This document shows, piece after piece, positions 810-31,944 of a DNA stretch of 36,466 nucleotides. Under the pieces are notes generated by a model. The model saw only the letters and a list, made by a program, of their open reading frames with translations, did not search any database and had not been told where the DNA came from. Position 1 is the first letter of the stretch. Every line of letters starts with the position of its first letter. Source of the DNA: an uncultured Methanomicrobiales archaeon (GTDB lineage: Archaea > Halobacteriota > Methanomicrobia > Methanomicrobiales > Methanospirillaceae); the NCBI GenBank assembly GCA_903926075.1, contig CAIYHQ010000022.1:1-36466 (forward strand), written 5' to 3'. The translations under genes and the position numbers were made by a program.

Positions 810-814
810 ACTAA

Positions 815-2088
<1,274 letters not shown>

Positions 2089-2092
2089 AAAA

Positions 2093-4998: not shown

Positions 4999-5741
4999 TG
5001 AAGGACAACCGCTTTATCTCTTATGCAGTACCCATCTAGGGGATTGGAGAGCGTAACGGGTGTACTAATAAACGTGAAAGGTTTTCGCTCAATAACACGC
5101 CTTATATCTCCTTTAAACTCAAATTTTGTCGGTAACATGAAAACTTGGGGTGTAAAAAGCGTTTGAATAATCGGAACCTGTTTGAAATCAATATCGTACT
5201 TGTAGGATTTTGATATGTCACCAGGTACAAGAGTGTTTTTAAAATGGGTTGTTTTTTCCGGGGTATATTGCTTTATATCTGAGATCGAACAAATTTTTAA
5301 TAGATCATCACTATTCCCTGCAGTGAGTGCATAATATGGAGAAGCAAATGCTTTATTTAATTGTTGGAGTGGTTCGATTTTATCTGAACCAAAGAAAAAT
5401 GTAAAATCATTTGAATAAAGAAATTCACGAATCAAAATGCTGTATTGACGTCTGTTTTTTATGTCTTCACAAGTATAATTTTTCTCTTTTCCAGTCAGTT
5501 TTCGATAATTCCATAAATCTTTCATCAACCCTTCATGCGTTCCATAGACACTGACCAAAACATTATAATTGTCAATAAATGAGTGGGCTTCTTCGAGGCA
5601 TATTCCCAAAGCTGCACCTATCAATCCAATAATGGTTGTTTTTGGTGGTAGGGGTAAAGTTTGGTGAAATGTGTGAGTCTCCGGAACTCTGAATGATGCT
5701 GTTATAGACTTTGCTGTGATAGTGAAAATGAACATATTCAC
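4995..5741 (-). CDS. cas5: Cas5 Cascade subunit (Cas5t-like)
   Basis: Cas5 caps the 5' handle of the crRNA in Cascade and contacts the large subunit. The 248-residue product opens with a RAMP beta strand (FIFTITAKSITASFR) followed by a conserved-looking LPLPPKTTIIGLIGAALG segment, the glycine-rich helix start typical of Cas5. The size and partners (Cst1-like Cas8 and Cst2-like Cas7) suggest the Cas5t branch of subtype I-B. It starts 7 nt after cas7 and overlaps cas3 by 4 nt. Confidence 0.92.
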   Translation of the reverse strand: MNMFIFTITAKSITASFRVPETHTFHQTLPLPPKTTIIGLIGAALGICLEEAHSFIDNYNVLVSVYGTHEGLMKDLWNYRKLTGKEKNYTCEDIKNRRQYSILIREFLYSNDFTFFFGSDKIEPLQQLNKAFASPYYALTAGNSDDLLKICSISDIKQYTPEKTTHFKNTLVPGDISKSYKYDIDFKQVPIIQTLFTPQVFMLPTKFEFKGDIRRVIERKPFTFISTPVTLSNPLDGYCIRDKAVVLQ

Positions 5742-5748
5742 TCTCTAA

Positions 5749-6633
5749 TCAGGAATAATATTCATCCACCCATTTTGACATTTCATCAAATGCTTCACCA
5801 ATAGATTTTGAACCTTCAATTGTTCCCTCAAAAAATCCTTGTCGTAAACCGATTATTGAGGCTACAACTTCCTTATTATAATCTTTTAGCGTTTCCTTAA
5901 TCATTCCAGTATTAAGTTTCTTACCTTCTACCTGAATACTTTCAAGAAAGATCGGATTTTTTGTTTTAAGCATTGCCGACGCGACAAATTTTGGGGAAAT
6001 ATCTGCAAGAAACCTACTCTGACGACCCGAAGCCCATAAATTTTTTATAGCATCTAATAGGTCTTTTACCCGCAGGGCTTTCTCTTTATTGTTCAAATCT
6101 TTATCAAACCCATCACCGGATCCTACACGATCAAGTTCGATGAGAATTGATCCCCTATATAGTCCTGAATGAATCTCCGTCTCGAAAATATTAGGGTCTC
6201 CCCCAGCTTTTGTCCCCATATAATTAGTACCAAAATCGAGGTCCCCAAGATATGGATTAAGTGCAACTAATGGTGAAACACGAACAACAGAAGTTCTTTT
6301 TGTTGCTTTTCCCTTTTTTCCCTCAGATGCCTCTTCAGTTCCCATATAACCGAATAGATCATCATCGATATAATTAACTGGCTCCTGTTTTGTTGTAGCT
6401 GCCCCTTTTGCAATTTTGGATGCCTCACCTTCAGAAAGTGTTCGGCCCAGGACTTCTAGCTGATTTCTCAAAGCTCTCCTCACAGCCTGTGAAGATACAT
6501 AAGGATAGTCCTCTTTCCCCACCCTGATTTTTTTAATGCTCGATATATTATCTGCTTCTTTGTCTGAGCCATTTAGTGATGCAAATGAAACGGGTGTTAG
6601 ATAAGTTAATGTCAATGCCTTTGCGGTTTTCAT
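5749..6633 (-). CDS. cas7: Cas7 Cascade backbone (Cst2/DevR-like)
   Basis: Cas7 polymerises along the crRNA spacer and forms the Cascade filament. The 294-residue product begins KTAKALTLTYLTPVSFASLN and has the YVSSQAVRRALRNQL segment and the later ETEIHSGLYRGSI region typical of the Cst2/DevR family. A Lys/Gly/Glu-rich stretch around residues 75-110 (near EEASEGKKGKATKR) is probably a disordered thumb loop. Its ATG shares one base with the cas8 stop (TAATG), so the two are translationally coupled, as expected for subunits of one complex. Confidence 0.93.
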   Translation of the reverse strand: MKTAKALTLTYLTPVSFASLNGSDKEADNISSIKKIRVGKEDYPYVSSQAVRRALRNQLEVLGRTLSEGEASKIAKGAATTKQEPVNYIDDDLFGYMGTEEASEGKKGKATKRTSVVRVSPLVALNPYLGDLDFGTNYMGTKAGGDPNIFETEIHSGLYRGSILIELDRVGSGDGFDKDLNNKEKALRVKDLLDAIKNLWASGRQSRFLADISPKFVASAMLKTKNPIFLESIQVEGKKLNTGMIKETLKDYNKEVVASIIGLRQGFFEGTIEGSKSIGEAFDEMSKWVDEYYS

Positions 6634-8351
6634 TATGCTACCTCCACTTTAGATTTGTTGCTATTATCTGTTGATACCGGGTTTCCAGCATTAAAGGTGT
6701 TTAGTGCGGCGATCATGCAGAACTGTTTGAACTCGGTAAAATTTTCCTCCATTATTTGACCTTTATTATATAGTTCTGCATTTACCCTCGTACCATACTT
6801 CATTTGTATGCGATTGATCTCATTTAAAAAATCTTCAGGTTTTCTTGCTTTTCTTAACCGGAAAAGATCTCCTTTCCCTTTCTTACCACTTGGTGCGATA
6901 CTCATTCCAATTGTCTTTCCAACACTTACTGCAATGTCAATAGTTTCTTGATCCATAATATCACTACCTTCTCGAATTACCTTTTCATATAAAATTACAA
7001 AATCAAATAGTGGTTTGATGTTCTGAACTTTGGATTTATTAATCCTGAACACATGTTGTTCTACGAGAGCGACGATACATTGTTTTTTTAGTATATTTTC
7101 GCAAACTCGATTTCGAAGAATCGTTTTACTTTCGTTCTTGGGTTGTTCAAAATCAACTAGTAGCATAATTACTTTTGTAAGATCAACCTTGCTCCTTTCT
7201 AGATAATCTATTAGCCTGAAAAAATATACGGATTCTTGGAATGACCAGATCATCTTTCCCATCTGGGTGTCACCAAGAGATTCAGTATGAATCACAAAAA
7301 AATCAAGAGGGGATTTATTCAGGTTTATATCATAAAGTTTTTCATAATCCAGTTCGTATTCCTCATCATCTGATGAAGACAAAACCCTTTTTGTCATTGC
7401 AACACGATACAGTGAATATAAAAAGGAGAAAAATTGCTCAAACGGTTTTTGGAAATATCCTCCGAGTTTGTTTTCAAAATTTCTATAAAAATTTGGGTCT
7501 TCAATCTTACCTATTTCCAGACTCCGAAAAACGTCATCCATTTTCTCCATACTTGATGAGTATGGGAAATAGATATGATATGTGTCATTATTTATGGCAT
7601 AAAAGCCTGAAACTGGAACAAATTTTCCGATAAAATCACATTTCCAACAGACCTTTTCTGGACTGCTGCCAGATGAATTAAAAGAAAGAACACCTGAAGA
7701 TCCTGTAATCATAGGGAACACAGTCCCTCCAATTTCACTCAGGGAATGCGAATTCTGACCACAGATAAAACAATAACCTTTCGATTTGCCAGATAATTTT
7801 TCTAGATGAATTGTAGGAGAAATGATATTTTTGCCATCAATCAATAAAGAAGAACCCGGTTTAAGTTTCGTTTCTGCCAAAAATTCTTCAAACCGCTCCT
7901 GAAGATAAGAATATTTTTCCTCAAGAATTGGGAATGGTTGTTTTGCTGATTCTTTTCTTTTTTCGAAAGTTGCTTTTCCTTTGTTTTTATAACTTTGCCC
8001 TGAAATTTTAACAAGTCCAGCGATTCCAATGGGTTTGACTTTGGGAAACCGAATGAATTGATCCTTTTTGGTATCGTAATAGAAACCTTCGTTTTTATCC
8101 TTCTGACTTTGTGAAGATGTATTATAATATTGTTTAAGTAATTTAGAATACACTTTTTCCAGAAATGATTGGACCTCTTTTTCTGAGCCTATAAAAGAAA
8201 TTCCTGATTCATTCAGTTTTATCTCTACGCCGGATTCTTTGTACTGTTCTATAACCGAAATTCGGTATAGACCCAATAATCCGGAATCCATCCAGAAGTG
8301 GTTAAGTTTAGGAAATTTAGTAGTGATTACGGATTCACTCAATTTTATCAC
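6633..8351 (-). CDS. cas8b: Cas8 Cascade large subunit (Cas8b/Cst1-like)
   Basis: This is the large subunit that recognises the PAM and recruits Cas3. The 572-residue protein has two CxxC pairs, Cys194/Cys197 (YCFICGQ) and Cys235/Cys238 (VCWKCDF), separated by about 37 residues. That is the zinc-binding arrangement seen in the Cst1 branch of Cas8b. Sequence outside this is poorly conserved in the family, so assignment rests on the zinc motif, size and position before cas7. The start is GTG at 8349-8351, preceded by AGGAT at short distance. It is the first gene of the operon. Confidence 0.88.
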   Translation of the reverse strand: MIKLSESVITTKFPKLNHFWMDSGLLGLYRISVIEQYKESGVEIKLNESGISFIGSEKEVQSFLEKVYSKLLKQYYNTSSQSQKDKNEGFYYDTKKDQFIRFPKVKPIGIAGLVKISGQSYKNKGKATFEKRKESAKQPFPILEEKYSYLQERFEEFLAETKLKPGSSLLIDGKNIISPTIHLEKLSGKSKGYCFICGQNSHSLSEIGGTVFPMITGSSGVLSFNSSGSSPEKVCWKCDFIGKFVPVSGFYAINNDTYHIYFPYSSSMEKMDDVFRSLEIGKIEDPNFYRNFENKLGGYFQKPFEQFFSFLYSLYRVAMTKRVLSSSDDEEYELDYEKLYDINLNKSPLDFFVIHTESLGDTQMGKMIWSFQESVYFFRLIDYLERSKVDLTKVIMLLVDFEQPKNESKTILRNRVCENILKKQCIVALVEQHVFRINKSKVQNIKPLFDFVILYEKVIREGSDIMDQETIDIAVSVGKTIGMSIAPSGKKGKGDLFRLRKARKPEDFLNEINRIQMKYGTRVNAELYNKGQIMEENFTEFKQFCMIAALNTFNAGNPVSTDNSNKSKVEVA

Positions 8352-8552
8352 AATCCTATCTGGATTCTTTCATTTATCTACGTCTGCTTATAGATTAAAT
8401 ATTCTTTATTCTTGTCGCAGCATAAGCATTGTGAATGCATAGTGAGAGAAAATGTAATTAATTTTTTCGGTTGACAAATAGAGTAATAAACAATGCCGAA
8501 AATTTAAATCATTTTTTTTCCCTCTCCATTAATTACAAAAGCAAAAACCACA
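8352..8552 (-). promoter_or_regulatory. cas operon upstream region with probable TATA box
   Basis: The 200 nt before cas8 carry no convincing gene. On the minus strand ATATTTAA at 8395-8402 is a plausible TATA element that would start transcription near 8370, about 20 nt before the GTG. The distal end (8520-8552) is the first part of a 71-nt repeat shared with 9722-9793. No clear operator was recognised. Confidence 0.4.
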
Positions 8553-8590
8553 TTATAACTTCTTTTTGAATTCATTGAGAAAATCTGCAG
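8520..8590. repeat. Direct repeat copy A (PIN toxin 3' end and downstream flank)
   Basis: Positions 8520-8590 and 9722-9793 are about 80% identical over 71-72 nt with one single-base indel. Both share the T-rich lead-in, CCCTCTCC, a central ACTTCTTTTTG and ATTGAGAAAATC. In this copy the sequence is the last 12 or so codons of the truncated PIN gene plus its flank. See copy B for the consequence. Confidence 0.85.
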
Positions 8591-8790
8591 GTGTAAGTAC
8601 CGTTAACTCACTTGGGAAATGTTTGACATTTCCTGTTATAATGGGTGCATGAGTATGAAGAGAGAGTTCTATAAAGGGCAAGTCTGAAGGATCAGACATA
8701 TAGCCCCCTTTGAAAATATGTAAATTAGCAAAGAATTCTATCTCCCTTCGGAGATTACACCGATATTCTCGCCCCTCCGTGACGAAATTC
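8553..8790 (-). pseudogene. PIN-domain toxin, C-terminal remnant
   Basis: The last roughly 80 codons match the end of PIN (COG1569-type) ribonuclease toxins: SDPSDLPFIELSL, then IITGNVKHFP, then LTPADFLNEFKKKL. An EYRCNLRREIEFF stretch upstream looks like the family's EYREVL helix joined early to the next helix, suggesting an internal deletion. The N-terminal DTN motif with the first catalytic Asp is missing. An open frame continues to 9062, but that part has no PIN resemblance and runs into the phosphoesterase. I judge it a non-functional fragment. Its antitoxin partner may be the gene at 9735-10049, now separated by a phosphoesterase. Confidence 0.75.
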
Positions 8791-8898
8791 GTTTGTTTGA
8801 ATGTACTTTTAGTCGGGATGCTTATTATGAGCGGATTTAACTCAAAGGAGCAATTACAGGCCATTGTTGAGTGGTGAATTACTAATGGGGCTACAGAG

Positions 8899-8935
8899 AT
8901 TTCAATCCCTTTTATCTTGGATGTTGCTCTGATAG
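8899..8935 (-). repeat. Solitary degenerate CRISPR repeat
   Basis: This 37-nt stretch matches the array repeat at 33 of 37 positions (mismatches at repeat positions 1, 11, 13 and 35 in plus-strand numbering), in the same orientation as the array 8.8 kb away. Reading on the minus strand it starts CTATCAGAGC and ends GGATTGAAAT, so the handle is nearly intact. I found no convincing second copy within 100 nt on either side. It sits between the PIN remnant and the phosphoesterase, upstream of the cas operon. Confidence 0.92.
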
Positions 8936-8952
8936 TGTTTTTTTTCCCGACA

Positions 8953-9624
8953 TTACCATCTCTCCAGTTTAACCTGGTCATTATCATCAATAGTAAGGTA
9001 ATCGGGGAATGCCCCAGGGTTTGCACCACACTCACATTTGAACTGACGATGGGTATGGCCAAATATCAGATATGACCTGTCACTCATGTCGATGTCAGTT
9101 GGCAGGTAGTTTGTCAGATGCAAGTTAATGCAGTCCTCGATACGCTGGATGTCATTTTCGTCCCATGATTTTTCATGGGTTATCTTGTAGATTAGTCCTG
9201 CGTATGTACGGAATGACCAAAGCACTGATGCCAATGAACCAATTGTGTTTCCTGACATGCATAGTTTGTTGGCTATGGCAATGTAATTTTCAAGTGTCAT
9301 GTATTCCATGTTGATTGCTACATCGAGTTCATGACCATGGATAAATCTAAATTTACCTTTTGCCCATGTAGGGACTCCTGATGTGTTTATGATGTCATGG
9401 TTACCTGTAAGAAGGATCTCATGAATGGGCCTCATTGCCAATGCCTCACTACAATGAGATAGGACATCGAAGTTGTTACATCTCCAGTAATCAAAGTAGT
9501 CGCCAAGGTTAATTGCTGTGACACCTTCCTCTTTGATGTAGTTGTAGAAGGATATTAGACTGTTTAGATTTTTGTCGGATGTACTGTGAGTTAGGTGGAC
9601 ATCTGAGTAGACGAAGTAGGTCAT
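8953..9624 (-). CDS. Calcineurin-like metallophosphoesterase
   Basis: The 223-residue product carries the full set of two-metal phosphoesterase motifs in order: DVH near residue 8 (SDVHLTH), GDYFD, GNHD, HGHE and a C-terminal GHTH. The layout resembles LpxH/YfcE-like single-domain enzymes; the substrate (nucleotide, sugar nucleotide or phosphodiester) cannot be told. It has no signal peptide, so is probably cytosolic. It lies between an antitoxin and a solitary CRISPR repeat, inside a segment bounded by direct repeats, which suggests arrival or retention by rearrangement. GGTG lies upstream of the ATG at 9622-9624. Confidence 0.88.
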   Translation of the reverse strand: MTYFVYSDVHLTHSTSDKNLNSLISFYNYIKEEGVTAINLGDYFDYWRCNNFDVLSHCSEALAMRPIHEILLTGNHDIINTSGVPTWAKGKFRFIHGHELDVAINMEYMTLENYIAIANKLCMSGNTIGSLASVLWSFRTYAGLIYKITHEKSWDENDIQRIEDCINLHLTNYLPTDIDMSDRSYLIFGHTHRQFKCECGANPGAFPDYLTIDDNDQVKLERW

Positions 9625-9721
9625 TTTTATACACCTTAATAAAAGAAAATTATCTCATTTAATTATATTGCTACTTTAGAGATTTTGTAATTAATTTTTT
9701 TGAGGGGAAATCAACTTTTTT

Positions 9722-9793
9722 CCCTCTCCGTGAATTACAACAGAGAAAACCGCCTCATGACTTCTTTTTGTATTGATTGAGAAAATCGTGCAG
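9722..9793. repeat. Direct repeat copy B (PIN toxin tail fused to antitoxin)
   Basis: This copy matches 8520-8590. In one frame on the minus strand it still encodes HDFLNQYKKKS followed by a stop (9755-9757), clearly the toxin tail DFLNEFKKKL of copy A. The antitoxin gene, however, reads through it in another frame. It is therefore a scar of a deleted PIN toxin gene joined to the antitoxin. Confidence 0.8.
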
Positions 9794-10049
9794 ACTCTAT
9801 CTCATTTTCTATCTCATCCATTGTCATACTGCTTCTCCCAGTCTTTTTACTGGTCATCCACATATGTTCAACTGCCCTTTCAGCCCTGATTCGTCTGATA
9901 AGGCTTAACATTTCCTGAGGATCACCGTTAATAGCCAGGGTAATTATTTTCGGTTTCCCGTTAACAGTAATAATCGTCTCATTATCTTCATCATCTTTCC
10001 AGAGAATGGCGGGATTAGATCGTATCTCGGCTGAACTAATGTATTTCAT
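9735..10049 (-). CDS. Phd/YefM-type antitoxin with an altered C terminus
   Basis: The 104-residue product begins MKYISSAEIRSNPA, with a Phd-like fold (ETIITVNGKPKIITLAIN), and then a helical partner-binding region ending MTMDEIENEIESAR. These are hallmarks of antitoxins paired with PIN toxins. The last roughly 20 residues are read out of frame through the remnant tail of a PIN toxin, so the natural stop has been lost. The upstream DNA has two direct ATATGAT copies, a probable autoregulatory operator. No intact toxin follows. It may still bind DNA or neutralise a PIN toxin elsewhere. Confidence 0.8.
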   Translation of the reverse strand: MKYISSAEIRSNPAILWKDDEDNETIITVNGKPKIITLAINGDPQEMLSLIRRIRAERAVEHMWMTSKKTGRSSMTMDEIENEIESARFSQSIQKEVMRRFSLL

Positions 10050-10054
10050 AATAT

Positions 10055-10073
10055 ATCATATAATTAATCATAT
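10055..10073 (-). promoter_or_regulatory. Probable antitoxin operator/promoter
   Basis: Two copies of ATCATAT (plus strand) lie at 10055-10061 and 10067-10073, 12 nt apart and thus on about the same helix face. They are immediately before the antitoxin start (10049) and overlap an AT-rich TATA-like region. Phd antitoxins normally bind such repeats to repress their own operon. The short distance suggests a leaderless or near-leaderless message. Confidence 0.4.
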
Positions 10074-10195
10074 TATATATCTTACTTACCTACCTATGAT
10101 TCATCCTTGATATAAAAAAATTTCATCTTAATGCCTGTCACTTTTTAAAGGTGATTCAGCATTTAATGATTAAAATTAAAGTTAAAGGACTACAA

Positions 10196-11416
10196 TCAGT
10201 TTTTTTCTCTAGTAAATACCGACCAGAAGAAAAAAACTCCGACTATTAGCGAAAGAAGAAAACCCACAAAAAACCCTGGACCATATTGTAACCCGGTACC
10301 GATGATAAGACCTGTTACCAGAGGCCCAAGAGAATGCCCTATGTCCATTGTAGAAGATAGTGCTCCCATCGAGGCACCAATCTCTTTTTTCCTTGCGACA
10401 TCAGCAACATATGCTCCGGTTGCAACGGTTGAGAGGGATAAACCAAGCCCGGAGATCAGGCTGATTACTGCAAACGACCAAAAATCTGAAAATAATGGAA
10501 TAATTGCAACCGGGACTGACATAAGGAACAAACCTGATAAGATCTGGATACGTTTGTCCATCCGGTCAGCCATCCAGCCAAAGAGAGGTTTCGTAAGTGC
10601 TATCAGGATTACCTGGACTGAAAATAAAATACCGATCTCATAAGCTGCAAAACCTTTCCCAAATAGAAATACGGGTAAAAAAGTTTCAAATGCCCCGAAA
10701 GAAAAATATGAGGACATCTCTATCGCAGCAGTTGCCCGGAGGGTCCTGTTACCAAAGAATATTCGAAAACTAGCTGCAAAATCACCAGTGCTTGTGAATG
10801 CCAAGGTTCCCTTATTTTCATCTTTATAAAGAAATGTCAGCAATAAAACCGGAATTGCAGTAAGGAAAGCAACAAGATACACTGCCTCGTAACTTACTAG
10901 TCCGCTGTATCCAGCAAAAAGGGATATTATAATTCCCCCGACAAGGGGTGCAATAGTCCTACCCACAAGGGTTGCCGAAGAATATTGCCCAAGCATTTCA
11001 CCTTTCTTATCCGGAAAACGTTCGACGATGACCGCTGAAGCAACAGGACCCAGTATAGCGGTCCCAAGTCCATGGAAAAAGCGGATTGGAATCAGCATAG
11101 CGGGATTTGTAATAAAAAGGTAACACAGTGGGGCAATGAGAAACACGAATCCGGAAAAGACGAGCAGCCTCTTTCTACCCAGGCGGTCAGATATTACACC
11201 AACAGGAAAAGAGAAAAGAATCCCGGCAAATGGGGAAACTGCTGAAATAAGCCCAATCGTTGCATCTCCAGCTCCAAGAGCATGGACAAAGAGGGGTAAA
11301 ACCGGATTTTTCGATATCGTTGTTGAGAAAATTGCAAAAAATCCTATCAGGCAAAGTTGAAAGAGAATTTTTCGTTCTCCTGGAAAATATGAATTTTTGC
11401 CTGACCTTGGATTCAT
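10196..11416 (-). CDS. MFS family efflux transporter
   Basis: The 406-residue protein has about 12 hydrophobic segments and the MFS motif A in the first half, GVISDRLGRKRLL, with a related GWMADRMDKR in the loop before segment 8. The two halves are similar, as usual. The HGLGTAILGPVASAV segment resembles the drug-export motif of 12-TM antiporters, so export of a small molecule is likely, but the substrate is unknown. No Shine-Dalgarno sequence is visible, and a T/A-rich box at about 11432-11445 suggests a leaderless start. It is divergent from pstS. Confidence 0.85.
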   Translation of the reverse strand: MNPRSGKNSYFPGERKILFQLCLIGFFAIFSTTISKNPVLPLFVHALGAGDATIGLISAVSPFAGILFSFPVGVISDRLGRKRLLVFSGFVFLIAPLCYLFITNPAMLIPIRFFHGLGTAILGPVASAVIVERFPDKKGEMLGQYSSATLVGRTIAPLVGGIIISLFAGYSGLVSYEAVYLVAFLTAIPVLLLTFLYKDENKGTLAFTSTGDFAASFRIFFGNRTLRATAAIEMSSYFSFGAFETFLPVFLFGKGFAAYEIGILFSVQVILIALTKPLFGWMADRMDKRIQILSGLFLMSVPVAIIPLFSDFWSFAVISLISGLGLSLSTVATGAYVADVARKKEIGASMGALSSTMDIGHSLGPLVTGLIIGTGLQYGPGFFVGFLLSLIVGVFFFWSVFTREKN

Positions 11417-11596
11417 AATTTAATAATATCTGCTATTTTAAAGAATAAAAAATTTCATGGTAACAGGATTACTATTGTTTAACTTATAATATATAGATCT
11501 TATAGTAATATATATTAACTATATTGTTGTATATAAAAATATATAATAAATTGCGAAAATATAAATCCAGTCTTGTTAATTTAAGTATGAATTACC
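11417..11596. promoter_or_regulatory. Divergent promoter region between MFS gene and pst operon
   Basis: This 180-nt region is very AT-rich. It holds a semi-palindromic stretch near 11483-11505 (around TATAGATCTTATAG) and a TATA-like TATATAAAAA at about 11530-11539, which would serve pstS. The palindrome is a candidate site for a phosphate-responsive regulator such as the AbrB-PhoU proteins. That link is inference. Confidence 0.4.
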
Positions 11597-12490
11597 ATGC
11601 AAAAATCAATGAGGATTTCAGGTATCTTTATTTGTGTTTGTATTCTTGTTCTGTCTCTTGCACTTTTTACAAGCGGCTGTACGAGCCAGACATCAACACC
11701 CAAAAACACAAATGTTGGTACGAATAGTGCCAGTAACGCTAATAATTCCCATACTCTTGTTTTATCCGGATCAACAACCGTCCTTCCAATCGCTGCAAAA
11801 GCTGCAGAAGCATTTATGACGAAAAATAGTAATTTTGATGTCCAGGTGACAGGCGGGGGATCAGGTGTAGGAGTTACCGCTGCAGGTGAAGGCACAGCAA
11901 ACATCGGAATGTCTTCCCGTGACCTCAATGCTGCTGAAATGACAAAGTACCCTTCATTAAATGTGATTACCATCGCAAAGGACGGAGTTGTCATAATAGT
12001 TAATCCAGTGAACACGGTAAACAGCCTGACCTTAAAGAATATCGCAGCAATTTACAATGGAACTATTACAAACTGGAAACAACTTGGTGGCAGTGACGCT
12101 CCAATTGTTATTGTTGGAAGAGATAGTGCATCAGGAACAAGGGATTACTTCAATTCAGCTGTAATGAAGAACCTTACGACTGCAAAGACGATGCTTGAGA
12201 AAAATTCCAATGGTGCAATCCAGCAGACTATTGCCCAGGTCCCTGGCTCAATTGGTTATGTTGGTCTCGGTTATGTTGATACAACAGTAAAAGCAGTTCC
12301 GCTTAATGTAAACGGGACACTCATGAACGCGACCGTAGACAGTGTAAAAACATTGACATATCCATTATCACGAAACTTATACTTTATAACAAAAGGTCAG
12401 CCATCTAAAGACGCGAAAACATTTATTGACTATATTCTCTCACCCGAAGGTCAGAAAATTGTAGCGGATGTTGATTACGTCCCACTTTAA
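11597..12490 (+). CDS. pstS: Phosphate-binding lipoprotein PstS
   Basis: PstS captures phosphate outside the membrane and delivers it to the Pst ABC importer. The 297-residue product has a signal peptide with lipobox LFTSGC, making Cys28 the lipidated residue. A Ser/Thr/Asn-rich linker follows, then the periplasmic-binding fold with SGSTTVLPIA, TGGGSGVG, MSSRDL and RDSASGTRDYF, the loops that hold phosphate. A T-rich run directly after the stop may terminate some transcripts, allowing more PstS than permease. It heads the pst operon. Confidence 0.95.
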   Translation: MQKSMRISGIFICVCILVLSLALFTSGCTSQTSTPKNTNVGTNSASNANNSHTLVLSGSTTVLPIAAKAAEAFMTKNSNFDVQVTGGGSGVGVTAAGEGTANIGMSSRDLNAAEMTKYPSLNVITIAKDGVVIIVNPVNTVNSLTLKNIAAIYNGTITNWKQLGGSDAPIVIVGRDSASGTRDYFNSAVMKNLTTAKTMLEKNSNGAIQQTIAQVPGSIGYVGLGYVDTTVKAVPLNVNGTLMNATVDSVKTLTYPLSRNLYFITKGQPSKDAKTFIDYILSPEGQKIVADVDYVPL

Positions 12491-12498
12491 TTTTTTTA
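12490..12498 (+). terminator. Possible T-run terminator after pstS
   Basis: A run of seven T directly follows the pstS stop, 40 nt before the permease start. Archaeal RNA polymerase can terminate at such runs without a hairpin. Partial termination here would give PstS in excess of the membrane parts. No experimental support is available in the sequence. Confidence 0.3.
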
Positions 12499-12534
12499 AA
12501 ATCTGACTATCCGTCATATACTCCTGGAAAAATT

Positions 12535-14505
12535 ATGCTTAATAAACCTAAAGAAGGAGGATCAGGACAAAAATCACATCACATAATACAGGTGAAAGAA
12601 AATATTATTCAGAAATTCTGGTTTATCTGTGCCTTTTTTGCAGTTATTGCCATAGCATTCATTCTATTTTTCCTCATCAATGAGGCATACCCTGCTTTCT
12701 ACACAATCGGTCCACTAAAACTTATAACCGGCACAACCTGGGACCCTACAAGAGTTCCACCTGAATACGGAATGCTTCCCCTCATCGTTGGGACAATTCT
12801 TGTAACCCTGGGAGCGATGATATTTGCCATACCTCTGTCACTTGCAAGTGCCCTTTACATTTCAATTCTCGCACCATACCGGGTTAAGCTTATCGTTAAA
12901 CCAATAATTGAACTTTTAGCAGGAATTCCATCTGTAATATACGGTTTTATCGGCCTCATTCTCCTTACAACATGGATAATGGTCGCATTTAATCTTCCAA
13001 CCGGTGAGACCTGGCTTGCAGGTTCTATTATATTGGGAATAATGGCCATCCCCACTATAACAAGTGTTGCAGAAGATGCCATCAGTGCCGTTCCACGCGA
13101 GTATAACGAGGGCTCACTTGGTCTTGGAGCAACAAAATGGCAGACAATATCGAGAGTTATTATTCCTTCAGCCCTTTCAGGCATTACTGCTGCAATTATT
13201 TTGGGATTGGGCCGGGCAGTAGGTGAGACTATGGCGGTCCTAATGGTCACAGGCAATGCAGCCGTCATTCCAGACCCTATATGGAATATTTTCTCACCAA
13301 TAAGGACCCTTACCGGAACACTCGGTATTGAGATGGGTGAAGTTGCGGTTGGAAGCTTGCACTATAACGCTTTATTTGCAGTCGCAGTAGTTCTTCTTGT
13401 TATAACCTTAATTGTAAACATACTTGCAACATTCATACTGGATAAAGTTAAAGCGAAACAATGCGGAACGAAAAATTGCAGCATAGTATATAAAGAGAGA
13501 CGAAAGATACCAGGTAAAAATGTAAGACTATTATTTTCCCGGATATCTTATCGCTATATATTAATTCTTTTCATAAGTATTTTTGCGTTTTTTATTAACG
13601 GGTTATATACAGCTCTTTTTATTGTATTCCTCCTTTTTCTTCTGAATTTTATTATTCAAAAAACATCCCAGAAGAATATCCAGAAAATTATTTTTGTTTT
13701 GATCTATTGTGCAATACTTTTTGTAATTTTTATCCTTGGAATAATTCTTTTTGATATTTTTGCAAATGGAATTCCCTACATATCATGGGAGTTTCTAACA
13801 GGCATACCCACAGATCTTGGAAGAGCAGGGGGTATATTTCCTGCGATTGTCGGAACGTTATATCTCGTATCAGGGGCGATTTTAATCTCTCTTCCCATTG
13901 GAATCGGTGCAGCAATATACCTCATTGAATACACGAGGGAAGGAAAAATTACAAAATTCATACGTGTTGGTTCAGACCTTCTGAATGGAACGCCTTCAAT
14001 TGTATTTGGCCTGTTTGGGTTTGCATTTCTTGTACTGTACCTGAATTTTGGAGTTTCGCTCATCGCCGGACAGATAACGCTCGCACTGATGGTCCTACCC
14101 ACTATCATTCGGACGACAGAAGAATCATTAAAAAGCGTCCCGGTTTCATTCAGAGAAGGAAGCCTCGCATTGGGAGCTACAAAATGGCAGACAATCCGCA
14201 AAGTTGTATTGCCACCGGCCATTCCCGGAATCATAACCGGGACCATTCTTTCCCTTGGGAGGGCTGCAGGAGAGACTGCCCCCATTATGTTCACTGCAGT
14301 GGTCTTTACCCAGAGAAATCTTCCTAATTCCCTATTTTCTCCAGTGATGGCGCTCCCATATCATCTTTTCATCCTTTCAACTAATGTTCCGGGTGCACAA
14401 GGACAAAAATATGGAACCGCAGTTGTACTTCTGGTTCTTGTAATCTTTATCTACGCTCTTGCAATTATTATCAGGAATCATTATCATAAAACTCAAAAAT
14501 GGTGA
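12535..14505 (+). CDS. pstCA: Single-chain phosphate permease, PstC-PstA fusion
   Basis: The 656-residue protein contains two complete ABC permease domains. The N-terminal half (about residues 20-310) is PstC-like, with the EAA loop [19 protein letters not shown] followed by [12 protein letters not shown]. The C-terminal half (about 345-656) is PstA-like, with [19 protein letters not shown] followed by [13 protein letters not shown] basic linker and extra hydrophobic segments near residues 330-400 join them. No internal stop or start suggests two genes. Fusion fixes a 1:1 ratio of subunits. pstB overlaps its end. Confidence 0.92.
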
Positions 14506-15272
14506 CTATGACAGAAAATGTTGAGATATTACAAATTAAAAACCTCAACCTGTGGTATGGTGAGACGCAGGCACTGAAAAATATTAATATGACATTTATA
14601 GACAGGCAGGTAACAGCACTTATCGGACCTTCAGGCTGCGGTAAATCTACGTTGTTACGCTGTTTAAACCGGATGAATGATATTGTTAATGAATGCAGAG
14701 TTGACGGAACGATAGACTTCAATGGGAAAGATATTCTGCATAATAATACCGACCCGGTTGAGATTAGAAGAAAGATAGGAATGGTTTTTCAAAAACCAAA
14801 CCCGTTTCCAAAAACTATCTTTGAAAACGTGGCATATGGCCCGCGAGTACATGGTATTAATGAACGTAAAGAACTGGAAAGAATCGTAGAGGAGAGTCTT
14901 AAGCATGCAGCCCTCTGGGATGAAGTAAAAGACCGACTTTCGGAATCAGCGATGGGACTTTCAGGAGGACAACAGCAGAGGCTTTGTATTGCCCGCACGC
15001 TTGCAGTGGAACCTGAAGTTATCCTGATGGATGAACCATGTTCAGCCCTTGACCCGATAGCTACATCAAAAATTGAAAACCTTATTGATGTTCTCAAGCA
15101 GGACTATTGCGTCATAATTGTTACTCACAACATGCAACAGGCCTCAAGAGTAAGTGATTCAACAGCTTTCATGTATTTAGGAGACCTGATTGAATTCGCC
15201 CCCACACGACAGATATTTGAAAACCCAAAACAGGAACTAACGGAAAATTACATAACCGGCAGGTTTGGATAG
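14499..15272 (+). CDS. pstB: Phosphate ABC transporter ATPase PstB
   Basis: PstB hydrolyses ATP to drive phosphate uptake. The product has Walker [10 protein letters not shown], the Q-loop (VFQKPNPFP), ABC signature LSGGQQQR, Walker B VILMDEP and the H-loop THNM. PstB proteins typically have the PNPFP and MNDI segments seen here. The first ATG (14499) overlaps the permease stop by 7 nt. A second in-frame ATG at 14508 is an equally possible start (254 residues). Confidence 0.96.
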
Positions 15273-15281
15273 AGGTAAAGG

Positions 15282-15932
15282 ATGACTGAAAAATTTTTTG
15301 ATGAAATTAATGATTTGAAGTCTGATGTGATTACATTCAGTTGGTTTGCTGAACAGATGTTGAAGAATTCTATTGAAGCTCTAATTAATCTTGATAAAAA
15401 TTTAGCAAAAGATGTAAAAAAAAGAAAAAAAGAACTTGTTCAGACAAGTTACCAGATTGAAGAGAAAATATTTTCAATAATTGCACTATATCAACCGGTT
15501 GCAAGGGATATGAGGACAGTTGTCTGCTCGCTTGGTGTAGTGAATGCAGCAGAAAGGATAGGGACTTATGGAAAAGATATAGCAAATATCGTAAGGGATT
15601 TCCCGGAGAGACCTCATATTGAAAACCTCGTTTCAATACCACATATGGCAGACCTGGTAATAGATATCATCGGAGATACAATTAATTCCTACGAACTTGA
15701 GGATATTTCATTATTAGCCAAATTATCAGAAAGGGATGATGTAGTTGATTCATTAAAACGCAGTATATTCCGCGAATGTATCACATATATGATGGAAGAT
15801 CCCAGAAATATCGCCATATGTACCCACTATGTCATGATTGGGAGGTACCTGGAGCGATCAGCTGATCATGCCTGCAGGGTTGCAGAAAAAGTCCATTATA
15901 TGGTAACCGGAGAACGGGTGGAGATAAAATAA
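15282..15932 (+). CDS. phoU: Phosphate transport regulator PhoU
   Basis: PhoU binds the Pst transporter and signals phosphate sufficiency. The 216-residue all-helical protein has the two-bundle layout with metal-binding E/D motifs: AAERIGTYGKDIAN in the first repeat and GRYLERSADHACRVAE in the second. A strong ribosome-binding site (GAGGTAAAGG) precedes the ATG. It closes the pst operon, 9 nt after pstB. Confidence 0.94.
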   Translation: MTEKFFDEINDLKSDVITFSWFAEQMLKNSIEALINLDKNLAKDVKKRKKELVQTSYQIEEKIFSIIALYQPVARDMRTVVCSLGVVNAAERIGTYGKDIANIVRDFPERPHIENLVSIPHMADLVIDIIGDTINSYELEDISLLAKLSERDDVVDSLKRSIFRECITYMMEDPRNIAICTHYVMIGRYLERSADHACRVAEKVHYMVTGERVEIK

Positions 15933-16332
15933 ATAAAGCATTTTAACCTGTTTTTGGGAAAAAAGTTCAGATTAATTATTTAATAACTTTTAATATTTCT
16001 AACTATATAGGCATATAAATTTTATGATAGATGATATAGATTATATGCAAAATAAATATATGGACTTGTTGATAAATATAGGTAACTAAACTTTGTCAGG
16101 AGATGATATACGGTTTTCACTGATTGCAGGATGTTGATATTAGTAAATTAGATAGGAGTAAATCTAAACAGCGTTGATAAAAATTACTCGTCTTTCTGCC
16201 TTAAAATTAAATGAGATATAATATCTTTAACAAGAACCAGTTTTTTTTCTTAAAACTAATGAAAAGATATAGTCATTAGTAAAATATCAGGTTATGACAG
16301 CCAGGATATTCTTAAAAAAGGGAATGGAATAC
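15933..16332. other. AT-rich intergenic region upstream of the AbrB-PhoU regulator
   Basis: About 400 nt separate phoU from the chosen start of the next gene. The stretch is very AT-rich, with TATA-like elements around 16005-16065 and an ATATAGAT motif at 16034-16041, but no ORF, tRNA or hairpin that I could support. It may hold the phoU terminator (T-rich near 15948-15955) and the regulator's promoter. The last 39 nt could be coding if the ATG at 16294 is used. Confidence 0.4.
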
Positions 16333-17337
16333 ATGGAAATACGTAAAATTCAAATGACTGGACGGTCCTCTTTTGTCCTGACTCTACCTAAAAACTGGGT
16401 TGATTCTCTGGAGATCCAAAAGAATGATCCATTAGGGGTTATTATCCAGTCAGATGGCAATCTGTTGATTACTAAAAATATTTCTGGGGAAAAGATCCAG
16501 CGAACCAAAAATATTGAAGTGCATCAAAAGACAGACCCGGTTTTTTTTTATCGGATGCTCATCGGAATATACATTGCAGGTTATAACACCATCGCAATCT
16601 CATCAAAAGACAGAATTTCAGGAAAAATCAGGGAGTGTATCAAAGAATTTACAAATATGTTGATTGGAATTGAATTCGTTGAAGAGACTGATAATAAGAT
16701 TATACTTAAGGATCTACTAAATCCACTCGAGATGACATTTGCAAATTCTCTTAAGAGAATGTTTGTAATCGCAAAAAGCATGCACAATAAAGCAATTGAA
16801 TCACTCAGAACCAATAATATCGCGTTGGCAGCAGAGGTTGTACAACAGGACAGTGATGTAGACAGGTTATTCTGGCTTATCGCTCGTCAGACAAATATGA
16901 TAATGCAGAATGTCCATCTTGCACAGAAGATGAATACTACTATAATAGAAATTATCCCCCATTATCATGTAGGAAGGATAATTGAGAGAGTTGCAGATCA
17001 TGCGGTCAGAATCTCAAGAAATGTTGAAAAAGTTAAAGAAAATCAGATTGAGACGAATATTATTGATAAAATCTCGATAGCGTCAGATAAAGCCATCCTC
17101 GTCTTTACTCAAAGCGTCGGATCTTTCTTTTCTCATGATATTATGAATGCCAATAGAATTATTGAATCAATTCATTCCCTTGAAACGGATTATTCAAAAA
17201 TCAATTCAGAAATTTTAGACCTTCCGGCAGGTCTTGCAGTACTGATAAGAAATATAAGTGATAGTATCAAGAGAACAGGTGAATATTCTGCCGATATCGC
17301 TGAAAACGTAATAAACTACGAGATGATGGTAACCTAA
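16333..17337 (+). CDS. SpoVT/AbrB-PhoU domain regulator (copy 1)
   Basis: The first 45 residues (EIRKIQMTGRSSFVLTLPKNWV) are a SpoVT/AbrB swapped-hairpin DNA-binding domain; the rest is a PhoU-like helical domain with the motifs GRIIERVADHAVRIS and IKRTGEYSADIAENV. Archaeal proteins of this build are thought to be phosphate-linked transcription regulators. I chose the ATG at 16333 because the homologue at 22843-23853 begins at the equivalent Met; an ATG at 16294 would add 13 residues. It follows pst-phoU on the same strand, which supports a role in phosphate control. About 334 residues. Confidence 0.88.
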   Translation: MEIRKIQMTGRSSFVLTLPKNWVDSLEIQKNDPLGVIIQSDGNLLITKNISGEKIQRTKNIEVHQKTDPVFFYRMLIGIYIAGYNTIAISSKDRISGKIRECIKEFTNMLIGIEFVEETDNKIILKDLLNPLEMTFANSLKRMFVIAKSMHNKAIESLRTNNIALAAEVVQQDSDVDRLFWLIARQTNMIMQNVHLAQKMNTTIIEIIPHYHVGRIIERVADHAVRISRNVEKVKENQIETNIIDKISIASDKAILVFTQSVGSFFSHDIMNANRIIESIHSLETDYSKINSEILDLPAGLAVLIRNISDSIKRTGEYSADIAENVINYEMMVT

Positions 17338-28108: not shown

Positions 28109-28345
28109 TTATTCATTGGTTGCATAACCAGGCACATTCTTTTTCCCTTCTTCTGTAATAGAGTAAATGATATAATTTCCTTCCTGAAGACTCGAGATTA
28201 GCCCAGTTTTTTTCATTATTGCCAGATGATATGAGAGTTTAGAGTCTGCAATACCGATGCATGCCTTAATAACACAAACACAAAAAGACTGGATGCAAAC
28301 AAGAAAAAGAATTGAATTAAGTGAAATCCTTATAAAAAATGTGAT
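28109..28345 (-). pseudogene. arsR: ArsR-family repressor, 5'-truncated
   Basis: The last roughly 75 codons of a minus-strand frame match ArsR winged-helix repressors: a CVCVIKACIGIADSKL segment (recognition helix region with SYHLAIMKKTGLISS) and a wing EGNYIIYSITEEGKK. The expected first 25 or so residues, start codon and ribosome-binding site are absent. The open frame instead runs back into the divergent thioredoxin-like pseudogene. The CVC motif resembles arsenite-binding ArsR sites. Loss of the start suggests a deletion in the arsR promoter region. Confidence 0.65.
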
Positions 28346-28357
28346 ATGAGAAAAGAA

Positions 28358-28590
28358 ATGAAAATTGAAGTGCTCGGAACTGGTTGTTAGAAATGTAAAA
28401 GGCTGTTTACTAACGTAGAACAAGCGATTAAAGAAAGCAATATACCTGCGGACGTAATTAAAGTCGAAGATCTGGATGCAATTATAGAACGAGGGTAATG
28501 CTCACACCAGCCCTTTTTATCAACTGAACCGTTATGCCTGAAGACCGGATACCTGAGGTTAAAGAGATTAAAGCAATGCTTAAGGAGTGA
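28358..28590 (+). pseudogene. Thioredoxin-like small redox protein, broken
   Basis: The frame begins MKIEVLGTGC and continues KCKRLFTNVEQAIKES, the usual GCPKC thioredoxin-like start found in ars and permease loci. It carries three lesions. TAG replaces the residue between the active-site cysteines (28388-28390). One base is missing near 28493-28496 within a G run, and a TGA stands in the later segment ALFIN-TVMPEDRIPEVKE (28525-28527). Restored, it would be about 77 residues ending AMLKE at 28590. Its role would have been to supply electrons to the arsenic or permease system. Confidence 0.7.
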
Positions 28591-28665: not shown

Positions 28666-28860
28666 ATGACTTCTGCTCTCATCACCTGCTCTGGTATTTC
28701 GAAAACAGGGAAACTCACAACACAGGTAGCACTCACGCTGCTACAGCGTAGTCCGGACCAGTATGTGTGGATACAAGCCAAACGATCAGCTGTCACATTC
28801 GAAACGGATATCGGAGACTTTGATCGTGTTATCGTCCTTGATGGCTGCAGTGATTGTATT
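28666..28860 (+). pseudogene. DGC-domain protein, N-terminal part, joined to permease by deletion
   Basis: The frame starts MTSALITCSGISKTGKLTTQ and reaches VIVLDGCSDC, matching the putative zinc-binding DGC-domain family whose members continue with a CC motif. After DGC the sequence changes into permease coding DNA in another frame, and the open frame runs to a meaningless stop at 28929. Only about 62-65 codons are genuine. A short frame at 28593-28649 upstream (MTEKRLDMTVVATVL) is unrecognised and may be another remnant. Confidence 0.6.
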
Positions 28861-29677
28861 TGGTGTCTCAATTATCAGAACGGTTATTACACCCCAGAAA
28901 GTGAAGAGGAGGGTAGCTGGGAGGACTGAAGGGGTAGGAAACATTATTTCTGCAATGCTTGGGATTCCAACGCCTTTCTGCTCTTGTTCAGCAGTACCGC
29001 TGTTAATTGGCTTTGTTGAGAGCGGTGTGCCACTTGGGATTACATTCTCGTTTCTTATAGCATCACCACTTAGCAATGAAGTCGCAGCATCAATATTATT
29101 TGCAATGTTCGGATGGCAAATAGCCCTTATTTATATCGTATCCGGATTGATTATTGCAATTACTGCCGGTATTGTTATTGGACGCATTCATCTTGAGAAT
29201 AAAGTTGAAGAGTTCGTCTATAGAGTTAAACTCCACGATCTTAAAGAAAAATCGATGAGATGGAATGACAAGATGATATTTGCAAAAAATGAATCCCGGG
29301 ATATTACCCTGAAAGTACTTCCATATATTCTCATCGGGATAGCAATTGGTGCGGTTATTCATGGGTTCGCACCCGCTGATTTTCTTTTACATATTGCCGG
29401 AAAAAATAATCCCCTTGCAGTTCCAATCGCAGTTCTTATCGGTATACCGCTGAATTCGAATGCAGCAGGAATGATTCCAATTATGGAAATACTTACATCT
29501 AGAGGAATGGCAATGGGTACTGTTCTTGCATTCATGATGGCAGTGATTGGTCTCTCGCTTCCTGAAATAATTATACTCAAAAGAGTCATCAAATTGAAGA
29601 TTCTGACAATTTTTGTAGGAATCCTGTTTTTAGCAATTACACAGACAGGGGATTTGTTTAACATAATACTTGGTTAG
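28841..29677 (+). pseudogene. ArsP/DUF318-type permease lacking its N terminus
   Basis: The sequence from about MAAVIVFGVSIIRTVIT onward matches the COG0701 (DUF318) permease family, including the hallmark PFCSCSAVPL and the later GIPLNSNAAGMIP. Members of this family export organoarsenicals (ArsP) or are linked to redox proteins. The expected first TM segment is missing because the 5' end is joined to a DGC-domain gene. An ATG exists at the junction, so a shortened protein of about 278 residues could be made, and the longer frame from 28763 is read through foreign sequence. Function is doubtful. Confidence 0.65.
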
Positions 29678-29774
29678 GATAGTGATTTTGGAGAATGTTT
29701 ATGCAAAAATCAGATAAGGCCTTGGAAAGTTTAAAAAAATGGATTTACATATTCTTCATCGGAAGTTATTACGT

Positions 29775-30671
29775 ATGAAAACGATAAAACACCTCTCATT
29801 TCTTGACCGTTACCTGACTCTCTGGATTTTTCTTGCGATGGCTGTCGGTATCGGCTTCGGCTATTTTTTACCTGTAATGCCAGCAATAATCACAGGTCTT
29901 TCTATCGGAACGACCTCCGTCCCAATCGCAATAGGGCTAATTCTAATGATGTACCCTCCCCTAGCAAAAGTAAGATACGAGGAACTTCATACGGTATTCC
30001 AGAACACAAAAGTGCTGGGGTTATCACTTATGCAAAACTGGATTGTCGGGCCCGTGCTGATGTTTATCCTCGTTGTTGTGTTTCTCCGGGACCAGCCAAT
30101 GCTCATGTATGGGTTGATCCTCGTTGGCATCGCAAGGTGCATTGCAATGGTGATCGTCTGGAATGATCTTGCTCTAGGCGATTGCGAAGCCGGAATACTA
30201 ACACGATATATATTGATAAGAGTGAAATCAAAGGCATGGTATGAACAGGTTTTCATTCCGAAAATCTCTCCCATTACACTGATTGCGTTACTCTTTACAA
30301 TCATCATAATGTTTTCGCTTAAGGGTGAATATATAATCAATGTGCCACTTGATGTCGTGAGGGTAGCAGTTCCTTTGTTCTTTTATTTCATCATAATGTT
30401 CTTTGTAAGTTTTTGGACTGCATATCGCCTTGGTATTGATTATCCAAAGTCAACATCTATATCATTCACAGCAGCTTCCAATAACTTCGAACTTGCGATT
30501 GCAGTTGCTGTCGCTGTTTTTGGAATCGCTTCACCAGTTGCTTTCGCGACTGTGATTGGACCTCTGGTCGAGGTCCCGGCATTAATCGCACTCGTGAATG
30601 TCTCGCTGTGGATCAGGGGGAAATGGTATAGTGGAAAGAATGGTTCTGTATGCGGTCCGGTGATGCCATGA
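29775..30671 (+). pseudogene. acr3: ACR3-family arsenite exporter with internal deletion
   Basis: ACR3 expels arsenite using the membrane potential. The 298-residue frame has the family start ([20 protein letters not shown]), the essential Cys in the [12 protein letters not shown] segment, and the C-terminal [19 protein letters not shown]. Between ALGDCE and [12 protein letters not shown] (junction near 30183-30195) about 55 residues, roughly two membrane helices, are missing compared with normal members of 350-360. The frame is kept. Such a loss should change topology and probably abolishes transport. I chose the ATG at 29775; 29739 is in frame but adds non-family residues. Confidence 0.75.
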
Positions 30672-30748: not shown

Positions 30749-31446
30749 ATGCTTAAAGTATCCCGTCATTCAGAGTATCCACCCGAAGAAGGCAGGTATC
30801 TCTGTGGAAATGACTATTCCCCTGTTGCTGTCATCATCATTCTGACAACCGAACCTGAAGAGATTCCGCCAGATATAGAACGACTGGTACGAGCAGGGGC
30901 TGAAAGTGGTGCAGCACTTTCAGGAACCGTTCAAACGGCGAATATAGGTATTGAGAAGATTATCTGCAACATAGTTGCTAACCCGAATATCAGGTTTCTT
31001 ATCCTTGGAGGTCCTGAATCCGAAGGGCATAAAACTGGTGATGCGATAAAAGCACTGTTCCGGAACGGAGTCGATGAAAAGAAACGTATTATCGGGACTA
31101 CCGGGCTTACTGCAGTATTGTATAATGTTCCAATAGAGTTCATAAAGAGATTCAGAGACCAGTTGACAATTGTTGACTGCCAGTTTCAGACTGATGATGT
31201 GATCCGAAAGGCAGTATGGTCGTGCTACCGGAGAAGCCGGTTGATTTCAAAGGAGAGTTACTCTATGATCCGGGAGCATGGCATGAACCTCCAATTAATG
31301 GCAAAATAACCTGGAAGGTTACGCAACCGTGGTCTGAACCACCTAGTGACAAGGAACTGGCAGCTAAACAGCACGCTCTTGAATTGATTGAGAAATTGAA
31401 GTCACAAGGTGAAAAAAACACTGTGAAAAATACAAAACCAAAATAG
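30749..31446 (+). pseudogene. MtrA-like corrinoid protein, frameshifted
   Basis: The first frame resembles subunit A of tetrahydromethanopterin S-methyltransferase: SPVAVIII, GTVQTANIGIEKIICNI, NPNIRFLILGGPESEGHKTG, GVDEKKRIIGTTG. His94 in EGHKTG is the equivalent of the cobalt-ligating histidine. Near 31229-31233 one G seems lost. The second frame continues EKPVDFKGELLYDPGAWHEPP and ends in a Lys-rich helical tail (KELAAKQHALELIEKLKSQ). Restored length is about 232 residues. There is no C-terminal membrane anchor. A short frame with a good ribosome-binding site (30697-30755) precedes it. Its place between acr3 and arsC is unusual. Confidence 0.75.
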
Positions 31447-31524: not shown

Positions 31525-31944
31525 ATGAAAACAAAAGTACTTTTTATCTGTTCACATAATGCTGCCCGTTCTCAGATGGCTGAAGGATATCTCCGTGCGA
31601 AATATGGCAACAGGTTCGATGCATTTAGCGCCGGTACTAAAGTGTCCGAAGTGAGTATCTATGCAATTCAGGTTATGAAAGAGATCGGGATCGATATCTC
31701 GCAGCAACAATCGAAAAGTCTTAATGAATTCATTGACGAAAAAATGGATATCGTCGTGACTGTCTGCGACAATGCAAAAGCAACGTGCCCTTTTTTCCCA
31801 GGGTCTAATAAAAATATTCACATGAATTTTACAGACCCTAAAGAGTTCACTGGAAGTGAAGAAGTGGTATTAAATAGTTTTCGTACGGTGAGAGACGAGA
31901 TCTTCAGGTGGATAGATGAAACATTCAGTAAAGAGGTTACGTGA
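31525..31944 (+). CDS. arsC: Arsenate reductase ArsC (thioredoxin-coupled, LMW-phosphatase type)
   Basis: ArsC reduces arsenate to arsenite for export. The 139-residue protein has the phosphatase P-loop CSHNAARSQMAEG with nucleophile Cys9 and the two resolving cysteines, Cys81 and Cys88 (VCDNAKATCPFFPG), then the DP loop (FTDPKEFTG). All residues needed for the thioredoxin-type mechanism are present. It is the only clearly intact gene of the arsenic island, so its product arsenite would need another exporter. GAGG lies upstream of the ATG. Confidence 0.93.
   Translation: MKTKVLFICSHNAARSQMAEGYLRAKYGNRFDAFSAGTKVSEVSIYAIQVMKEIGIDISQQQSKSLNEFIDEKMDIVVTVCDNAKATCPFFPGSNKNIHMNFTDPKEFTGSEEVVLNSFRTVRDEIFRWIDETFSKEVT

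Follow-up and report, generated by a model that had tools for sequence, protein, structure and literature searches.

The MtrA-like gene in a decayed ars cluster

The stretch of DNA analysed here, referred to as the window, comprises 36,466 nucleotides (positions 1 to 36,466 of contig CAIYHQ010000022.1) of an uncultured Methanomicrobiales archaeon, the genome of which (G000) amounts to 3.14 Mb in 134 contigs. It carries an ars cluster in which a gene for a relative of the corrinoid protein MtrA, methyltransferase subunit A, is located with the arsenite efflux gene acr3 upstream and arsC downstream. The MtrA-like gene lies on the plus strand and is divided by one frameshift (near 31224-31230) into a first frame at 30749..31309 (186 aa), which matches PF04208 and represents residues 1 to about 160 of the joined protein, and a second frame at 31216..31446 (76 aa), which encodes the end of the core (DPGAWHEPP) and a family-specific tail. 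Because orthologues, which show 61-82% identity to the first frame, align across both pieces, the two frames belong to one protein, and for the searches they were joined with X at the break. An earlier note on this DNA, made from the sequence alone, had placed the gene between acr3 and arsC and regarded it as frameshifted, and both statements were confirmed by profile matches and orthologue alignment. We conclude that the gene in the window is a decayed, pseudogenised copy belonging to a widespread and hitherto undescribed MtrA-related family.

The decay affects the whole cluster, as arsR, the thioredoxin gene, arsP, acr3, and the MtrA-like gene are all damaged. The arsR remnant (28109..28423, minus strand; HTH_5, E-value 1.8e-07) matches an intact ArsR encoded elsewhere in the genome (locus L057, see below) only with its C-terminal 67 residues (28112-28312; 91% identity to residues 60-126). 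The remnant of a gene for an MTH895/ArsE-type thioredoxin (28358..28498, plus strand; 57% over residues 4-47 by tblastn) has an in-frame TAG within the CxxC motif, the translation reading MKIEVLGTGC*KC. The gene for the ArsP-type permease (PF03773; 28748..29677, plus strand; ArsP_1, E-value 1.1e-62) is damaged at the 5' end, leaving an open reading frame (ORF) at 28763-29677. The acr3 gene (29739..30671, plus strand) reaches 349.8 bits with TIGR00832 in two stretches, and alignment to an intact orthologue revealed that about 60 codons following GDCE are deleted in frame, by which profile positions 134-188 are lost. The frame of arsC (31525..31944, plus strand) is intact; its product belongs to the thioredoxin-type arsenate reductase family (LMWPc, E-value 2.1e-16; TIGR02691, 121.8 bits, below the cut-off). 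The single-base frameshift in the MtrA-like gene may be an assembly error; the remaining lesions do not depend on it. A plasmid search with the cluster as query returned similarity to acr3 only.

A second ars cluster with about 94% DNA identity to that of the window is located on another contig of the same genome (C131; L057:6681-8769). There, arsR and arsP are intact (the arsP of the window is 94% identical to the latter at the DNA level), acr3 is gone, and the core of the MtrA-like gene has been deleted so that its N- and C-terminal ends are fused in frame. Overlaps of 6-7 bp at the two junctions suggest microhomology deletions. Searches of this genome yielded no intact copy of either acr3 or the MtrA-like gene. 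Canonical mtrA is present in two copies within the mtr operon on C131, separate from the window contig. In a second species (G191; L042/L064), acr3 and the MtrA-like gene each contain one in-frame TAG, and thus the pair is decaying together there as well. The possibility that TAG in the broken genes is a pyrrolysine codon was ruled out, since no PylS scored over the cut-off in any of the six genomes checked (G000, G191, G207, G213, G151, and G228).

The protein family and its predicted cobamide site

The first frame matches the Pfam family MtrA (PF04208) with an E-value of 2.2e-36 and 125.6 bits (cut-off 25). It passes the NCBIfam model NF002126 (PRK00964.1-4 subfamily; 174.5 against a cut-off of 161), with which archaeal and bacterial members score 179-200, and fails the equivalog TIGR01111 for mtrA (117.4 bits against a cut-off of 249). 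Only MtrA families were matched in the Pfam and NCBIfam profile searches, with no HgcA-type CdhD corrinoid domain. The protein has no transmembrane segment, its maximum Kyte-Doolittle value over 19 residues being 1.36 compared with 2.6 in canonical MtrA, and His94 (GHKTG; codon 31028..31030, plus strand) aligns with the cobalt ligand His84 of MtrA. The earlier description as a soluble MtrA relative that keeps the cobalt-ligand histidine therefore holds. The extra C-terminal domain also described stands in part: a hairpin insert (residues ~163-173) and a tail of about 50 residues after residue ~183 are indeed family-specific, as is an N-terminal insert (38-50), while the DPGAWHEPP part is not foreign, because the soluble domain of MtrA ends in DPGAF (conserved as DPGAF/W..EP). 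Fusions of family members to ArsM or to transporters were not seen; long ORFs with apparent anchors look like start-codon artefacts.

Intact homologues, which the earlier note recommended seeking, do exist. A member was found in 23 of the 232 genomes of the order (61-87% identity), the intact ones being nearly full length including the tail, and a scan of named genomes yielded 80 loci with 55-88% identity, nearly all in metagenome-assembled genomes. The hosts include Methanomicrobiales, Methanosarcina, Borrarchaeum, Spirochaetota, Desulfobacterota, other 'Deltaproteobacteria', Actinomycetota, Chloroflexota, Nitrospirota, Aerophobetes, Bipolaricaulota, Kiritimatiellota, Lentisphaerota, and others. 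The distribution is patchy, with a member in 15 of the 393 genomes of the phylum sample and in 11 of the 296 genomes of Spirochaetota. A 90-protein tree placed the family as a single clade against canonical MtrA. Judged by sequence, the intact homologues form one family, distinct from both canonical and Mtx-type MtrA.

Canonical MtrA (PF04208, TIGR01111; PDB 5LAA, 5L8X, and 8Q3V) has the fold, the ligand histidine, and most cobalamin contacts in common with the family. In contrast to it, family members are only about 30% identical, have no membrane anchor, carry the N-terminal insert and the C-terminal tail, and are encoded outside the mtr operon in genomes that mostly lack MtrH. The Mtx-type or cytoplasmic MtrA of methanogens, encoded next to an extra mtrH, is likewise a soluble MtrA homologue. 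Service to Mtx, which according to the earlier note would have refuted the arsenic reading, is not what we found: the Mtx-type copy of one Methanosarcina genome (G256, L142, beside MtrH) shares only 37% identity with the window family, as against about 51% with canonical MtrA, and the true family member of the same genome (L094, 63% identical to the window protein) is located elsewhere. The domain family itself is already known, and databases list its members under MtrA. The novelty lies in a coherent subfamily, marked by an insert and a tail of its own, that resides in archaeal and bacterial ars operons of hosts mostly without MtrH. For bacteria, the database label as MtrA of methanogenesis is misleading, and an 'mtrA' annotated there via NF002126 need not mean methanogenesis, MtrH being absent in 22 of 25 hosts.

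The structure was modeled with AlphaFold using 44 sequences (predicted local distance difference test score 86.6). The model is confident up to about residue 188, beyond which a linker of low confidence leads into a charged helix (201-223). Foldseek returned MtrA structures alone at high confidence (5L8X, 5LAA, and 9QTS/9QTR), with a TM-score of 0.91-0.93 on the target against the cobalamin-bound 5LAA. The His84 ligand and the list of cobalamin contacts of MtrA were taken from PMC4915002 and compared across the family set of 86 members. His94, Thr63, Gly67, and Asn74 (MtrA His84, Thr53, Gly57, and Asn64) are present in 86/86 and Asn65 (MtrA Asn55) in 85/86, and the equivalent of MtrA Tyr18 is nearly always kept. 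The position of MtrA Lys52 is Gln in 86/86. Based on alignment and model, the protein is predicted to bind a cobamide with His94 as ligand. A cysteine beside the corrinoid, Cys144, was considered as an invariant arsenic ligand and was ruled out for the family, as Cys is present in only 20/86.

Association with arsenic genes

Within the order, 21 of the 23 loci have the gene on the same strand and 44-1337 bp downstream of acr3; the remaining two are a copy at the edge of a contig and a copy (G207) that does not adjoin acr3. The binomial chance of 21/23 near acr3 is about 1e-60 assuming independent loci, which they are not fully. These clusters carry ArsR, an ArsP-type permease, an ArsE-type thioredoxin, a DGC protein, DUF166, a C_GCAxxG_C_C protein, and ArsC, and some have ArsM. 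Further archaeal families of the phylum show the same arsenic context. Among the named genomes, 44 of the 80 loci, from about ten phyla, have ACR3, ArsP, ArsC, or ArsM within 6 kb (tblastn), so the genome-neighbourhood check places intact homologues very often beside ars genes. When only the 40 loci flanked by 4 kb or more in both directions are counted, 26 have a core ars gene within 6 kb and 14 do not. Gene orders differ (ACR3-MtrA, Trx-MtrA-ACR3, ArsP-MtrA, ArsM-MtrA, and MtrA-ArsM), and at many bacterial loci the gene follows a thioredoxin, an ArsP-type permease, or ArsM, or lies away from acr3.

Of 25 host genomes, 22 have an acr3 gene at some location. When arsenic linkage was mapped as a label on the tree, 18 parsimony changes were required, of which strong branches enforce at least 7; arsenic linkage also marks the deepest branches of the family. 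An arsenic link that is repeated and lineage-independent is thus well supported. Neighbours handling methylated arsenic or mercury include ArsM-type methyltransferases, the ArsP-type permease family, and hgcABC. ArsP was encoded in 14/17 acr3 clusters with the MtrA-like gene and in 8/20 without it (p 0.018, uncorrected and from contigs of unequal length), a suggestive enrichment.

Several other observations were made on the neighbourhoods. In three Methanoregula-type genomes, complete hgcA, hgcB, and hgcC genes are located in a cluster of acr3, DUF166, DGC, and MtrA-like genes (L037 8966-11503; L039 ~8924-13214; L041 ~5752-10133). Two loci (L072:1696-3193 and L078:4766-6264) consist of a two-gene unit of an ArsM-like methyltransferase and an MtrA-like protein with no other ars genes nearby; the methyltransferase of L072 scores below the ArsM cut-off. 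A conserved 92-residue ars-cluster protein (c5) with no Pfam or NCBIfam match is encoded at L039:10771-11049 and at 12 other loci of the order. The DUF166 protein, a recurrent acr3 neighbour in Methanomicrobiales (L041:12157-12846 and 10 other loci), shows a weak profile relation to the DfsP (seleno)protein model.

Proposed function and alternatives

As intact copies recur in ars clusters of archaea and of many bacteria, the family is a candidate for arsenic methylation or demethylation. With a probability of roughly 0.45, we propose that the intact protein is a soluble cobamide methyl carrier of the arsenic-detoxification operons of anaerobes, exchanging its methyl group with arsenic. That acr3 is broken together with the MtrA-like gene in G000 and again in G191 counts in favour of this role. 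The methyl group would be carried on the cobamide with His94 as lower ligand. The attack of As(III) on CH3-Co(III) and that of Co(I) on a methylarsenical are one reaction in two directions (cobalamin, Challenger chemistry). In one, Co(I) would remove the methyl group from a methylarsenical and As(III) would be released for ACR3; in the other, CH3-Co(III) would methylate As(III) and the product would be passed to the ArsP-type permease. Demethylation is slightly favoured, because ArsI is a dioxygenase, strict anaerobes have to our knowledge no equivalent of it, and As(III) could exit via ACR3; the protein would then be an anaerobic counterpart of the O2-dependent ArsI. Methylation followed by export via the ArsP-type permease comes close to it in plausibility. 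More doubtfully, the family might be the missing anaerobic cobamide-dependent arsenic (de)methylase common to methanogens and many anaerobic bacteria, a repurposed methanogenesis subunit by which carbon-arsenic bonds would be made or cleaved without oxygen or S-adenosylmethionine (SAM). Methylarsenicals from flooded soils poison rice and microbes and, if this proposal is true, the family provides a candidate gene for anaerobic carbon-arsenic chemistry that is open to testing.

The earlier note held that a cobamide-dependent arsenic route is not established in archaea. This needs qualification, since arsenic methylation by methanogens is described in PMC13262295 (citing Thomas 2011) and PMC6950371 as a side reaction of MtaA and methylcobalamin, which does not involve this gene. 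Dimethylarsenate (DMAs) demethylation by methanogens is also known physiologically, again without this gene (PMC6776024, PMC10579292), and its mechanism is called unclear in PMC10579292. As for the gene itself, none of the papers retrieved by the literature searches on MtrA in combination with acr3 or arsenic places an MtrA homologue in ars operons. The archaeal framing also has to be revised, as the family is not archaeal-specific and bacterial copies are nearly always without MtrH.

Among known systems, the MtaA/methylcobalamin route resembles our proposal in having a cobamide as methyl donor to arsenic and differs in being a side reaction of methanogenesis enzymes that are not encoded in ars operons. 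HgcA is likewise a corrinoid protein acting on a toxic element, in its case by methylation, but belongs to an unrelated fold family (CdhD/PF03599), with a Cys-on cobalt and a membrane domain of its own. Its genes (hgcAB) are often located near ars genes (PMC10349881). The SAM-dependent ArsM and the O2-dependent carbon-arsenic lyase ArsI provide the proposed type of reaction in ars operons (PMC6205960), but neither has a domain in common with the family or uses a cobamide.

Several findings weigh against methyl exchange with arsenic. For at least 14 copies with ample flanking sequence, a core ars gene is missing within 6 kb, ArsM is nearby in only a minority of loci, and among acr3 clusters it is no more frequent with the MtrA-like gene (2/17) than without it (2/20). 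Not all PF03773 permeases export organoarsenicals. The operons contain no constant methyltransferase partner. MtrH is absent from 22 of the 25 host genomes searched, so the reaction is not that of Mtr; it is present in Methanosarcina, Borrarchaeum, and one Nitrospirota genome, and next to family members none was found. In 21/25 host genomes the protein is the only one with an MtrA domain, and in almost every bacterial host the methyl donor or acceptor would be a protein other than MtrH. The position of MtrA Glu54, which hydrogen-bonds the ligand His84 (PMC4915002), is variable (Glu in 49/86, Pro in 24, and Ala, typical of Methanoregula, in 13), and therefore the control of cobalt must differ from that in MtrA. 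Against demethylation in particular stands PMC10579292, where the removal of methyl groups from DMAs is assigned to methanogens that are methylotrophic and not to hydrogenotrophic ones.

Some of these findings would suit a general cobamide methyl carrier between folates or pterins and another acceptor (a thiol, another metalloid, or a corrinoid enzyme), recruited by ars operons only since arsenite or methylarsenite poisons that step. The stand-alone copies in Desulfobacterota, Spirochaetota, Actinomycetota, and others have unrelated neighbours, and without MtrH a different donor is needed. We consider this unlikely, though a serious rival, as ars clusters contain the deepest branches and the majority of the archaeal copies, and the patchy presence resembles accessory resistance rather than housekeeping. 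It is less probable still that the protein is an arsenic accessory that transfers no methyl group to arsenic, such as a cobamide-loaded sensor, a protected cobamide store, or a subunit docking to ACR3 as MtrA docks to membrane subunits. The location directly after acr3 in nearly all loci of the order, the missing methyltransferase partner, the His-Glu linkage lost in many members, and the charged helix of the tail, suited to docking, are in line with it, but the varied positions of the bacterial genes make a fixed ACR3 subunit unlikely. An unrelated hitch-hiker on mobile arsenic islands would fit the patchy distribution and the copies without ars neighbours, but is very improbable given the recurrence in about ten phyla, the different gene orders, the forced label changes, and the small binomial chance, limited as it is by the dependence among loci.

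Elsewhere in the window, positions 219-8351 on the minus strand look by eye like a type I CRISPR-Cas operon (Cas4, Cas2, Cas1, Cas6, Cas3, Cas5, Cas7, and Cas8-like), and positions 11597-17337 like a phosphate ABC transport operon with PhoU-like regulators.
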